Below the pieces are notes generated by a model that made no database searches, had not been told where the DNA came from, and was given only the letters and a program-made list of their open reading frames with translations. A stretch of 64,000 nt of DNA from Stentor roeselii (Eukaryota > Ciliophora > Heterotrichea > Heterotrichida > Stentoridae): contig RSEH01000023.1 of NCBI GenBank assembly GCA_006503475.1, positions 153,276 through 217,275 of the forward strand, given 5' to 3'. This document shows positions 28,359-39,731 of this stretch, one piece after another (the first letter of the stretch is position 1; each line of letters begins with the position of its first letter). The position numbers and the translations under genes are program-made.

Positions 28359-29819
28359 ATGTCAAGAAAAACCGAATTCTGGAAGTCTTCAACGCCAGAC
28401 AAGTTAGGTCCAGGGTGTTACACATCTTCAAACCCCGAGAAAATCAAGCAAAACAAGACCGCCTTTCTGATAAAATCAAAAAGACAACTATCAGCCCCAA
28501 GGCCTTACAATCGATTTACTCCAGGTCCCGGTGCATATGACCAGAGTAAAGACCGTCAATCTTCAATTTCTCACAATTCAAGTGGATTCGCTTCAAAGAC
28601 AAAGCGGGAACTATTCCAACCATTCTCAAATCCAGACACTCCAGGTCCAGGTTCATATGAAACGCGAGTATCTTCAGCGGCTTCTCAGAAGCGCCGTCCG
28701 AAATTTTCAGCTCTTTATCTCGACCCGAGTCCTGTTTCGATTCCTTCAAACGAGGTGAATTCTTTACAAATAGGCCAACCTTCACCAGTAGAGCCTCAAG
28801 TGCACCATGAAAGTGAAAGTAAAGGTACTGCCTTTGGGAAGTACAAAGCAGTCAGACAGGTCTTTGCACAGGCAAAACCTTACCCGGGTCCTGGAAGTTA
28901 TAATTTGGAGAAGCCGGTTCAAGGGAGTGAGTCTTGGATGTTTGTTTCAAGCACTGGAAGAGCTGAGTCCCCTGCTTTAATCGCAGGGTCCTCGGCGCAG
29001 GTGCCGGGGCCTGGGTACTACTCGATCACGCCGACTTCTGCGGGGCGAGCAGGGCTTTTTACTATAGCAGCGAAGGAACTGCCATTGACGAATAATCCGT
29101 ATCTTCCTATACAGGTAGGGACTTCGGAAGTTCCACCTGTCGGTAGTTATAAACTTGCTGAAGATATCAAAAAAGCGGAAAAATTGAAAGCGAAGTATGT
29201 CACTGGAGATATTCAAACTAAACGGGCACCTTTTAATACACAGGAAAAAAGGCAAATGCCTTGGCTGCCAAAGGAAAACTTCCCTGGGCCTGGGGATTAT
29301 TCAGTGCTTAAGATCAGGCCGAAGTCCACTGGGTTTAGATCAACCAGGCCAAGGTTTGAGTTATCGAAAAATGATGACTTGCCAGGTCCAGGTCATTACG
29401 ACTTTGGCCTAGTGGAAAAGGAAAAACAAGTAATAGTGAATAAAAGTCCTAGATTCGTGAAAGAAGATACAAAAACCCCAGAACCTTATCTAGGACACTC
29501 TGAATGGACTGCGAAAAGAACTCGAGCCCCTGACTTCGAAAAGTTCAACCCAGGGCTTTACTTTGACTCAGGGCAGTCCAGGTTCAGGTCAAAGGCTCAA
29601 AATGAGAACCTGGGTCCAGGGTGTTACGAAAAAGAACGTCCGTTCACCGTGAGTTCTTCAAAGGTCTCAACAACTGAAAGATTTCAAGCTTTTGGCAGTT
29701 TTCGACCTGGAACAGGAACCAGTCAGAAGTTAGGTCCAGGTTACTACAACCCTTCAATTTCACAGAAGAAGTCTTTTAACATGGGAAAAGAAATCAACTT
29801 GGAAAAGACTTGGCTCTAG
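28359..29819 (+). CDS. SHIPPO/STPG (sperm-tail PG-rich) repeat protein
   Basis: 486 aa with about ten PGPG.Y motifs: LGPGCYTSS, TPGPGAYDQ, TPGPGSYET, YPGPGSYNL, VPGPGYYSI, FPGPGDYSV, LPGPGHYDF, LGPGCYEKE, LGPGYYNPS, often preceded by a phenylalanine-rich strand. SHIPPO/ODF3 proteins bind the microtubule lumen or outer surface in cilia and in cortical microtubules. No signal peptide or membrane segment. The ATG follows TTATTCAA. Confidence 0.9.
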   Translation: MSRKTEFWKSSTPDKLGPGCYTSSNPEKIKQNKTAFLIKSKRQLSAPRPYNRFTPGPGAYDQSKDRQSSISHNSSGFASKTKRELFQPFSNPDTPGPGSYETRVSSAASQKRRPKFSALYLDPSPVSIPSNEVNSLQIGQPSPVEPQVHHESESKGTAFGKYKAVRQVFAQAKPYPGPGSYNLEKPVQGSESWMFVSSTGRAESPALIAGSSAQVPGPGYYSITPTSAGRAGLFTIAAKELPLTNNPYLPIQVGTSEVPPVGSYKLAEDIKKAEKLKAKYVTGDIQTKRAPFNTQEKRQMPWLPKENFPGPGDYSVLKIRPKSTGFRSTRPRFELSKNDDLPGPGHYDFGLVEKEKQVIVNKSPRFVKEDTKTPEPYLGHSEWTAKRTRAPDFEKFNPGLYFDSGQSRFRSKAQNENLGPGCYEKERPFTVSSSKVSTTERFQAFGSFRPGTGTSQKLGPGYYNPSISQKKSFNMGKEINLEKTWL

Positions 29820-29844: not shown

Positions 29845-31437
29845 TTATTGCTTGGGAACTGGCCTTGGCAAAGGGATTTTGCTTGGTTTTTTCAGGATTT
29901 CTGTTAAAGTTGGACTGAGACTTAAGACTCTATCGATTTTACTTGTTTTTAACTGTTTTTGAAGTGCTTGAATTCTTTGATCTTTTACTTTCATCAAGTT
30001 TTTCATTAATTGCATGTCTTTTTGAGCCTTTTCGATCAGTCTTAGAACTTCGAAGTTCTCAAGACGGCCTTTTTCCAACATCGCTAAAGAACGATGGACT
30101 TGCTCGTGTTCAGTCTTCTTTCTGAGAAACATGCTTTGAAGACGCGCTGCCAGGCCGAGAACTGGCAAATCGTTGATATCGTCGAAACTCATCAAAAACA
30201 TCAGGAAAAAATGCCCGACTAGAGACATTTGAAGCTTTTTTGTTAAGTTGCTTTTATTGAAGTTTGGCCTACCCTTTGAAAGGTTCATCATTAGTTCTTC
30301 TAATAGGAATAAGGATGAGTTGATGCTGAAGGACTCGGAGAAACTTTGGTCGTCGTTGATTTCGCATAGGTCTAGAAGTTGAAGGACTGACGACTCTAGC
30401 TTGAATGTTACTAGTAAATGGTTTTTACCTTTGCTTAACCTGTGGAATGCTTCAGAGACCATCGCGAATGACTCGAAGCCCATTGTTACCGCTCTCCAAT
30501 CATGTGGAAAAAGATTAACAAGGTTATCCTTCACAACCTCAGTACATTGACATTCAGCTTTTTTCCCATCAAGCAAACTTGAAATCCTCTGAACAAGTGC
30601 CAAAACAAACGTTTGGCGATTTTTTCCAGAATTTAAAACAATACAGCAGTTATTTCTAGACTTTTTTCCAATTTCATTAATTTCTTGCAAATACTCTGAC
30701 TTTTTGACGACTCTATTAAACTCAATAATTTTTTTCAAAGACTTTTCCTTGACCACGACAGCATTTTCTCCAATATAAAGAACATCAGGAGAAATAACAA
30801 CTACTCGAAATTCAGGTTCTAAACTTATTTCTTTTATTTCACCATCAAAAAGAAACTCCTCTGCCTTGGAAGCAATGGCAATAGACCCAGCCTTTGAAAT
30901 CTGCATCAAACTTCTAGGAGAAACAGGAGGTTTCAAGAAAATCGGACTAGGACTTCGCGAAGGTCTTTGAATAGCCTGCTTGATTTCTTCACATTCCGAT
31001 TGAATCTTAACCAGACTTTCCTGACACTGCACAGAAGTATCATGAATACGCGAGTGAAGGTTTAATACGTAATTTTCCGTGTTGTTTAATTGACCTTCTA
31101 GTTCATTGTTGTAAAATTCTAAAGTTCTTATTGACTTTTCCCAGTTATCATTCATGGTTTCTAACTCATTTCTTAACTTTGAATGAGATTTCAAAGTAGA
31201 CTTCGCTGTTTCAAGTGAGTACTGCAGTGAAACTATTTGAGTCTCGGATTTTTGGTAGTCTTGTTTTAAAGAATTCAGCTCGTCTTGAATTGATTTGTTT
31301 TTCGCATCGGCTTCTTTGATTTGGTCTGAAATTGAAGAGATTTCGTTTAAAAGCTCTTCTTGGTATGACCCTGTCGCTTCTTTTAGAGAAAGGATTTCGT
31401 TTTGAAGTTCTTGGATCTTGTCTTGAATTTCTTCCAT
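29845..31437 (-). CDS. Kinesin-14-like protein with degenerate (non-catalytic) motor domain
   Basis: 530 aa from the first ATG (an upstream extension opens at TTG). Residues 1-160 are coiled coil and 175-450 keep the outline of a kinesin motor placed C-terminally, as in kinesin-14. CIVLNSGKNRQTFVL aligns with IFAYGQTGSGKTYTM (P-loop lost, its Lys replaced by Gln). LLDLCEIN aligns with LVDLAGSE (switch II lost). INSSLFLLEELMMNL and KSNLTKKLQMSL align with INRSLSELTNVILAL and NSKLTHLLMPSL. The NxxSSRSH switch I is not visible. A C-terminal coil follows. Fungal Vik1/Cik1 are catalytically dead partners of the motor Kar3, so a similar heterodimeric role is inferred. Confidence 0.7.
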   Translation of the reverse strand: MEEIQDKIQELQNEILSLKEATGSYQEELLNEISSISDQIKEADAKNKSIQDELNSLKQDYQKSETQIVSLQYSLETAKSTLKSHSKLRNELETMNDNWEKSIRTLEFYNNELEGQLNNTENYVLNLHSRIHDTSVQCQESLVKIQSECEEIKQAIQRPSRSPSPIFLKPPVSPRSLMQISKAGSIAIASKAEEFLFDGEIKEISLEPEFRVVVISPDVLYIGENAVVVKEKSLKKIIEFNRVVKKSEYLQEINEIGKKSRNNCCIVLNSGKNRQTFVLALVQRISSLLDGKKAECQCTEVVKDNLVNLFPHDWRAVTMGFESFAMVSEAFHRLSKGKNHLLVTFKLESSVLQLLDLCEINDDQSFSESFSINSSLFLLEELMMNLSKGRPNFNKSNLTKKLQMSLVGHFFLMFLMSFDDINDLPVLGLAARLQSMFLRKKTEHEQVHRSLAMLEKGRLENFEVLRLIEKAQKDMQLMKNLMKVKDQRIQALQKQLKTSKIDRVLSLSPTLTEILKKPSKIPLPRPVPKQ

Positions 31438-31491: not shown

Positions 31492-32526
31492 ATGATCGAC
31501 GTCAGGGTTGGCTGGAGATATCGACTGGGAAGGAAAATTGGAACTGGAGCTTTTGGAGATATTTTTCATGGGATTAACATTCAGAATAATGAGGAAGTTG
31601 CAATTAAACTTGAAAAAGCTAATAAAAAAACAAGCCAGTTGCAGTATGAAAGTAAAATATTGAAATCTTTGCAAGGTAGTCAGGGAATACCTATTATTTA
31701 CTGGTATGGGTGTGAAGGGTGTTATAATGCTATGGTCATGGAATTACTCGGGCCAAATCTTGAAGAACTTCTTCAATTCAGCGGACAGAGATTTTCTCTT
31801 AAAACTGTTTTATTAGTCGCTGATCAACTAATCTCAAGAATCGAATCCCTGCACTCAAAAAATCTCATTCATCGAGACATGAAGCCTGAAAACTTCTTAG
31901 TAGGACTGGGTAAAAAGGCAAGTATAGTTCACATGATTGATTTTGGACTGGCAAAGCAGTATAGGGACCCTAAGACTCACAAACACATTCCTTTTATTGA
32001 ATCTAAAAGTTTAGTGGGTACTTCAAGGTACGCGTCTTTGAATAATCATCTTGGAAATGAACTTTCTAGAAGAGATGACTTGGAAAGCTTGGCTTATGCT
32101 TTGATTTATTTGATGCTTGGATGTCTTCCTTGGCAGGGAAAAAGCTACTCGAATAAGGAGGAGAAGTCTAAGGTTACTAGGGACTTGAAGTTTAATACTC
32201 CTATTGAACAGATCTGTGCTGGGACTCCTCCAGAGTTTGCGATCTTTTTGAATTATTGTAGAAATCTGAAGTTTGATGAACGGCCTGACTATCCATTCCT
32301 GAAAAAACTATTCAAAGACTTATTCTTAAAGTCCCTCTTTGAATACGATTACATTTTCGACTGGACAATCCTCAACTACGTCCGTCCAATGAATCTAAAA
32401 AGATTTTACATGTCAAGAAGAAGTATCAGCAAAGAAGAAGAAGAAAAACTAAGCGAAAGCCAGTCATCAACAGAGAAAAACAAAGAATCCGACACAAAAA
32501 CCGAGAAAAAATGCCAAATCTTTTAA
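31492..32526 (+). CDS. Casein kinase 1 with C-terminal CaaX box
   Basis: 344 aa. Motifs: [12 protein letters not shown] (P-loop), VAIKLE (catalytic Lys), [23 protein letters not shown] (HRD), [12 protein letters not shown] (DFG), [11 protein letters not shown] (CK1 substitute for the APE region), [11 protein letters not shown]. All catalytic residues are present. A Ser/Glu/Lys-rich tail ends KKCQIF, a candidate CaaX prenylation signal (Phe at X). Membrane CK1s are usually palmitoylated (CK1-gamma, yeast Yck), so a CaaX tail is unusual. Divergent from the pseudo-kinesin (54 bp) and convergent with COMMD (3 bp). Confidence 0.93.
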
Positions 32527-38315: not shown

Positions 38316-39731
38316 ATGTTGCTTCTTGTTAAAGATGGAAATGGAAAAGTTCTCATGCAGATGGAGGTCAATAGAGTGACTCCTATCGCTGATATTGTTA
38401 GGGAAGTTCATTCTCAGAAACAGGTCCCTATTGAAAAAATTAACTTGTTGTTGTCGACTAATGTGCCTTTGGACCTTGATAGGATTTTTGAGCATTATAA
38501 TTGTCCTAAAGAAATTTACCTCGCCACTGAGCTTTGGTTTAAATATGAAACTGAAGATGGAAAAGAGTATTTCTTTGATCCTAATAATTCTACAACTCAT
38601 TGGGAACTCCCTGCTTGGGCCCAGGCTGTGCCTGGGCCGGTTGGGGAAGATGCTGAACTTGCGACTTTGATGAAACCAGGGGCCAAACATGCGAAGTACT
38701 CACATTTGCTAAGTCCTTCTGACTGGTTGCAAGGTAAAAACTACTTAAAAAGACCAGCACGTAAACAAATCGAAAAGCCTTATATAAAAGAATTCGCTTA
38801 CAAGCAAGGAGACGAAGAATACAACATCTGGTTCGACAAATACCTAAACGACTACATAGTCCGTCAAAGAACCCCAGCTTCAACCCGATGTGACCCAGAG
38901 AAAGACATCGGTTACACAAAAGCTGATTTATTTGAACCAGAAACTTCATACTGGTGTCTTCATTTCGTCAGAGGCTGTTGTGCGGAAGGTGCAAATTGTT
39001 CTTTTTTCCATCATCTTCCTTCTCTGCAGGAGTGTAAAAAAATCGCTCCGATTAAAGATATCTTTGGACGTTCGCGACACGCCACACAAAGAGACGACAT
39101 GGGAGGAATTGGCTGTTTTCAAAAAGAATGCAAAACTATTGTAGTTGGAGATTTAAAGATACCTCCAGGCACTGACCCTGTCGAACAACTCAATGAAATG
39201 CTTTGGCGCCATTTTTCTTTATGGGGAAAAATCGAGGATATTATGCTGATCCCTGCGAAATGTCTCGCTTTTATCAGGTTTTATCATCGATGCTATGCGG
39301 AAATCGCAAAAGAAGCTATGAGCAATCAGTCACTTGACTTTGATGAAATGATCAGCATCAAGTGGACTAATGAAGACCCTAACCCTAATAAGGAAAGTCT
39401 TTATTCGGAAAATTGGCATCGGAAACAACTGCAGGTTGAAAGGGAAAATCGAGGGAAAAAGAATATGAAAAATAATGAAAAAAATAAAAATCAGAATGAT
39501 GTTCAACAAAAGGAAGAAAAAATCGATTTTAACTTACCGAAAAAATTACCTCCTCCTGTTAATGTCGCTGATTTAGATAAAAAGTTAAAGGCTGAGGCGA
39601 AGGAAAAACAGGAAATTAGAAATAACTTGAAGAAAATGGAAAGTATTTTACAGAGAATTGAATCTGAACAAACTGAAACACTTGCGGAAATCATTTTTCC
39701 TGCTTGTTTGGAGGACTTACAGAATAAATGA
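38316..39731 (+). CDS. CWC2: CWC2-type spliceosome factor with N-terminal Ubl and WW domains
   Basis: 471 aa. Residues 1-73 look ubiquitin-like (LLLVKDGNGKVLMQMEVNRV...). 74-99 is a WW domain (W74, YFF, TTHWELP). The CWC2 core follows: RQRTPASTRCDPEKDIGYTK, C3H1 zinc finger (C214, C222, C228, H232), KDIFGRSRHATQRDDMGGIG, and RRM about 272-350 (KTIVVGDL..AFIRF). CWC2 contacts U6 and intron RNA at the catalytic centre of the spliceosome. The Ubl-WW extension is not part of the usual protein; WW domains in Prp40 and similar factors bind splicing partners. It ends in TGA (the window's clearest TGA stop). Confidence 0.88.
   Translation: MLLLVKDGNGKVLMQMEVNRVTPIADIVREVHSQKQVPIEKINLLLSTNVPLDLDRIFEHYNCPKEIYLATELWFKYETEDGKEYFFDPNNSTTHWELPAWAQAVPGPVGEDAELATLMKPGAKHAKYSHLLSPSDWLQGKNYLKRPARKQIEKPYIKEFAYKQGDEEYNIWFDKYLNDYIVRQRTPASTRCDPEKDIGYTKADLFEPETSYWCLHFVRGCCAEGANCSFFHHLPSLQECKKIAPIKDIFGRSRHATQRDDMGGIGCFQKECKTIVVGDLKIPPGTDPVEQLNEMLWRHFSLWGKIEDIMLIPAKCLAFIRFYHRCYAEIAKEAMSNQSLDFDEMISIKWTNEDPNPNKESLYSENWHRKQLQVERENRGKKNMKNNEKNKNQNDVQQKEEKIDFNLPKKLPPPVNVADLDKKLKAEAKEKQEIRNNLKKMESILQRIESEQTETLAEIIFPACLEDLQNK

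Follow-up and report, generated by a model that had tools for sequence, protein, structure and literature searches.

Stentor is a model for the building of large microtubule arrays in a single cell. The window analysed here, a stretch of 64,000 nucleotides from Stentor roeselii, harbours a gene (Table 1) whose product resembles a kinesin and is altered at the positions of its ATP-handling motifs. This raises the question whether such a protein is maintained at all and, if so, what a head without catalysis might be used for. According to the open-licence PMC literature, the purpose of one dead head in a motor complex has been studied mainly in yeast. A case of independent origin, in which one genome carries two dead families together with intact sisters, would make it possible to compare the uses of such heads. 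Surveys can furthermore overlook proteins of this kind; a plant kinesin survey reports that sequences without ATP-binding sites were discarded (PMC1434745).

The start codon of the gene is separated by 54 bases from that of a divergent protein kinase gene (31492-32526, PF00069), which to the eye looks CK1-like. At its other end the gene stands tail to tail with a SHIPPO/sperm-tail PG-rich repeat gene (28359-29819; PF07004, E 7.8e-24). Elsewhere in the window a gene at 38316-39731 shows a Torus domain (5e-30), while its RRM match sits right at the cut-off and its WW match slightly below; we take the combination of Torus and RRM to be reminiscent of the Cwc2/RBM22 splicing factors.

Table 1. Features of the pseudo-kinesin and of two related genes of the same genome. 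Positions are those of the window unless a locus is named.
Feature	Residues	Position	Strand	Remark
Whole ORF, pseudo-kinesin, family A	530 aa	29845..31437	-	single ORF, 530 codons, ATG to TAA
N-terminal coiled coil	2-156	30970..31434	-	one predicted helix; weak Pfam coiled-coil matches; common to intact sisters
Four-heptad block	92-114	31096..31164	-	L/W/L/L every 7 residues, Glu after each
RSPSP, disordered linker	161-165	30943..30957	-	at least 90% conserved
Kinesin-fold head	205-440	30118..30825	-	predicted model, fold and profile matches
Former P-loop NSGKNRQT	269-276	30610..30633	-	intact sisters: GQTGSGKT
Switch I remnant SKGKNH	335-340	30418..30435	-	sisters: SSRSH
Former switch II DLCEIN	356-361	30355..30372	-	sisters: DLAGSE; loop 11 shortened
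Alpha-4 helix	367-389	30271..30339	-	alignment with sisters
Loop 12 / alpha-5	390-407	30217..30270	-	PYRNSxLT (sisters) replaced by FxKSxLT
Post-head helix	445-498	29944..30105	-	pLDDT partly low; RTLxLLEKER common to intact sisters
SxIP-type motif SKIPLP	519-524	29866..29883	-	family alignment
L036, in-genome family-A paralogue	530 aa	L036:547-2136 (G000:C324)	-	without catalytic motifs
L043, second dead-head family B	537 aa	L043:829-2439 (G000:C130)	-	relatives P0012-P0017

A protein search with the query returned 11 proteins with E 8.4e-63 or better, and a profile search recovered the same 11; in both searches only the 7,997 candidates with the most words in common were scored. One of these proteins (P0001) is a near copy that differs from the query in 1 of 530 residues, and the remaining ten are 38-69% identical to it. 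The sole named orthologue is the hypothetical protein SteCoe_23085 of Stentor coeruleus (P0007). Since P0008 is a JGI gene model of the paralogue L036, 32 residues short, and P0011 a piece of the same gene, family A comprises ten distinct proteins. Both were included in the family alignment from which invariant residues were read, so that its 11 rows stand for 10 distinct genes; the tree and the region counts were made without them, without the near copies P0001 and P0012 and without the fragment P0017. Between the query and L036 the four-fold sites are saturated, being identical at 14 of 55 positions (0.25, with 0.27 expected by chance), and yet 232 of 517 amino acids (45%) are identical. This points to purifying selection on a maintained gene, as the initial annotation had concluded from the long intact frame.

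Structure prediction followed by a fold search had been proposed as a check of the kinesin assignment. Both were run, and the predicted head matched the kinesin fold in fold and profile comparisons that were accompanied by shuffled controls. The head profile was built from 35 of 38 other kinesin loci of the genome (L006, L021 and L053 left out). These 38 remained from 41 sampled loci after removal of L022, L025 and L028, which the P-loop pattern had missed though G-x4-GK[ST] is present in them; about 80 further genome matches lie outside the sample. In total the 44.4-Mb genome yields at least 122 kinesin-motor matches, which is many for one organism. A viral model of 576 residues without a name (A0A0K1Y7K6) also came up in Foldseek against the query model, with an E of 6.0e-10 and a low TM-score.

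The P-loop, DLAG and SSRSH motifs are missing in all ten distinct family-A proteins, and in the query nine alignment columns are absent before the remnant of switch I. The query is thus almost certainly a pseudo-kinesin that has lost its ATP-handling motifs, and the claim of the initial annotation holds for a family that is kept across species and not for a single gene only. Judged by the missing motifs, the protein is predicted not to be a motor itself. Two residues at the former catalytic sites are nevertheless invariant in family A, R274 in the former P-loop and H340 in the former switch I.

A search of the genome recovered the query itself, L036, L043 with a match in the coil only, and seven kinesins whose matches cover both the coil and the region from switch II onward. 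The seven kinesins (L037-L042 and L044) have the coil, the head fold and the post-head helix in common with the query, and five of them also an SxIP-like tail motif, but they keep the P-loop, switch I and switch II, which the query lacks (GQTGSGKT, SSRSH and DLAG in 7/7). The alignments make the query homologous to these intact kinesins of the same genome over its full length, coil and tail included. L043 and its relatives form, as their sequences indicate, a second conserved dead-head kinesin family of the same group. Like family A it has the same coil and has lost the catalytic motifs (in 5/5 proteins); unlike family A it passes the Pfam Kinesin cut-off and keeps the tubulin-side motif NKSLSTLEA...YIPxRNSxLT. 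When 8 further kinesins from this genome served as outgroup in a tree, A, B and the seven intact proteins formed one group (100/100), and A and B are each recovered with 100/100; the order of A, B and the intact proteins inside the group is without support. A single loss of the ATPase common to A and B was not rejected. New beyond the initial annotation are the homology over full length to seven intact kinesins of the same genome, the second dead-head family and an invariant SxIP-type tail motif.

The class of this clade is probable rather than settled. The initial annotation had spoken of a kinesin-14 motor. The coiled coil indeed precedes the head, as in that class, with about 90 residues following the head, and for two intact sisters compared with solved structures the best matches were chains of KIFC3, KCBP-type kinesins and Kar3. 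This points to a class like kinesin-14, although kinesin-1 follows close behind. Kinesins-14 carry a Gly-Asn neck signature directly before the head, and in an alignment read by eye this is absent from the query and from the seven intact sisters. We therefore do not file the clade as kinesin-14.

Which parts of the protein have been kept can be read from the identity between family A and the intact sisters, divided by the identity between the sister groups. This ratio is low where ATP is handled and in the adjoining helix (P-loop 0.30, switch I 0.42, switch II 0.35, alpha-4 0.39) and higher in the first head strands (0.80), the post-head helix (0.67), the coil (0.63-0.69) and the tail (1.12). 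Among the 22 proteins from A, B and the intact group, 21-22 have the same residue at each of the coil positions L92, W99, L106 and L113 and at the Glu that follows each of them, so that dead and live paralogues have the core of one heptad register in common. The alpha-4 helix is the most conserved head part within family A, with an identity of 0.76 there and of 0.30 to the sisters.

From switch II through alpha-4 the net charge is -4 to -8 in family A; the intact sisters range from -1 to 0 and family B from -1 to -2. For alpha-4, loop 12 and alpha-5 together it is -2 to +2 in A (query +2), while the sisters have +1 to +3 and B has +3. Family A has also lost the PYR that the sisters carry in loop 12. 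The family-A head may thus grip microtubules more weakly than the sisters, and the charges speak mildly against a Cik1-like microtubule foothold. The argument is mixed, because the first region is acidic but the second about neutral, and for this reason the family-A head may still bind microtubules. The family-B head could grip them, given the tubulin-side motif that it has kept.

A [ST]xIP string in a basic, disordered stretch is the signature of EB1 binding. The tail around SKIPLP has a net charge of +5 and a pLDDT below 50, and S519, I521, P522 and P524 are invariant in 11/11 rows of the family alignment (10 distinct genes); SKIPLP is therefore a putative EB1-binding motif of the SxIP type. 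By itself such a string is not rare, as the other kinesins of the genome contain 22 in 27,130 residues, and the weight rests on its invariance in a tail whose mean identity is 0.41. The genome has seven loci for EB1 (PF03271). Most organisms have one to three EB1 genes.

The likeliest single reading, to which we give a probability of roughly 0.45, is that the query is a non-catalytic partner in a heterodimer with an intact sister kinesin and at the same time an EB1 adaptor. Sequence and model show a duplicated kinesin of the kinesin-14-like clade that lost the ATP motifs and kept the coil, the head fold, the post-head helix and the tail. The coil, with its core nearly unchanged, would pair the dead subunit with an intact sister, and the SKIP tail would bind EB1 and carry the pair to growing microtubule ends. 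The head would act as a spacer, or as a fixed module to which proteins bind, and not as a strong microtubule foothold, as the charges mildly suggest. Two parts of this reading are less firm. The evidence from the coil is equivocal, since a conserved coil core suits a homodimer equally well, and the EB1 adaptor would be partly redundant, since 5/7 intact sisters have an SxIP-like motif of their own.

It is also quite conceivable that the protein is a homodimeric, non-motor adaptor at microtubule tips, in which its own coil joins two dead heads that hold another ligand, and the SKIP motif and EB1 carry them without any kinesin partner. Coil and tail would be enough for this, the SxIP motif is invariant, alpha-4 is conserved within family A and remote from the sisters as if a new ligand had been gained, and the region from switch II to alpha-4 has turned acidic. 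Against it stands the coil core, which is about that of the intact sisters; had the homodimer become fully separate, one would expect its coil to have diverged so that mispairing is avoided. Improbable, in our view, is a dominant-negative or regulatory subunit, which would pair with intact sisters and switch off the motor or halve the motor count. The evidence for dimerisation is the same as for the heterodimer, and the lower charge between switch II and alpha-4 could loosen the grip of the pair, but poisoning alone needs neither a folded, conserved head nor an invariant tail motif. A decaying pseudogene, for which only the vanished catalytic motifs would speak, is refuted by the invariant residues in ten distinct proteins and by the purifying selection seen against L036. 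The idea of a coiled-coil protein that resembles kinesins by chance, suggested by the lack of any Pfam Kinesin match of the query up to E 10, is equally refuted, here by the controlled fold and profile matches and the full-length homology to intact kinesins; the probability of either is close to nil.

A wider scheme can be imagined, though we consider it rather unlikely. Heterotrichs would combine half-dead kinesins, in which several intact kinesins pair through the shared coil either with a dead B subunit that has kept its face for gripping microtubules or with a dead A subunit that has given up this face for another ligand and provides EB1 targeting. Such a system would be independent of Kar3-Vik1/Cik1 in yeast, with the ATPase lost twice.

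KIF26, Costal-2, VAB-8 and plant KAC have kinesin heads whose ATPase is lost or weak; they belong to other kinesin classes and have other architectures than the query. The kinesin-like orphan group 'pseudoKinesin-21' is described as unique to fungal taxa (PMC5076506), and we set it beside the query by this description. In the titles and abstract openings of open-licence PMC papers no ciliate pseudo-kinesin appeared among the matches listed, in agreement with the initial annotation, which knew of none. The closest parallel is the one that it had drawn to Vik1 and Cik1. These proteins (PMC4338441, PMC3544905) combine a coil with a kinesin-type head without nucleotide motifs, and the same combination is found in the query. 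In yeast, Cik1 supplies Kar3 with a non-catalytic head and with binding to EB1 (Bim1) (PMC4338441), and the query has a candidate EB1 motif of the SxIP type. The arrangement differs, for the query head, unlike that of Vik1/Cik1, is not C-terminal, and the EB1-type motif lies at the C-terminus and not, as in Cik1, in an N-terminal tail. The Pfam Microtub_bd profile, suggested as a check for the Vik1/Cik1 type, is not diagnostic, as it matches 8/8 ordinary kinesins tested. Kinship is unlikely, because the closest relatives that came up are intact kinesins from the query's own genome, in a tree built without Vik1/Cik1 sequences. What stands of the parallel is a conserved dead head of the same manner; the query lineage is probably separate from that of yeast Vik1/Cik1, and the likeness would lie in the mode of work.
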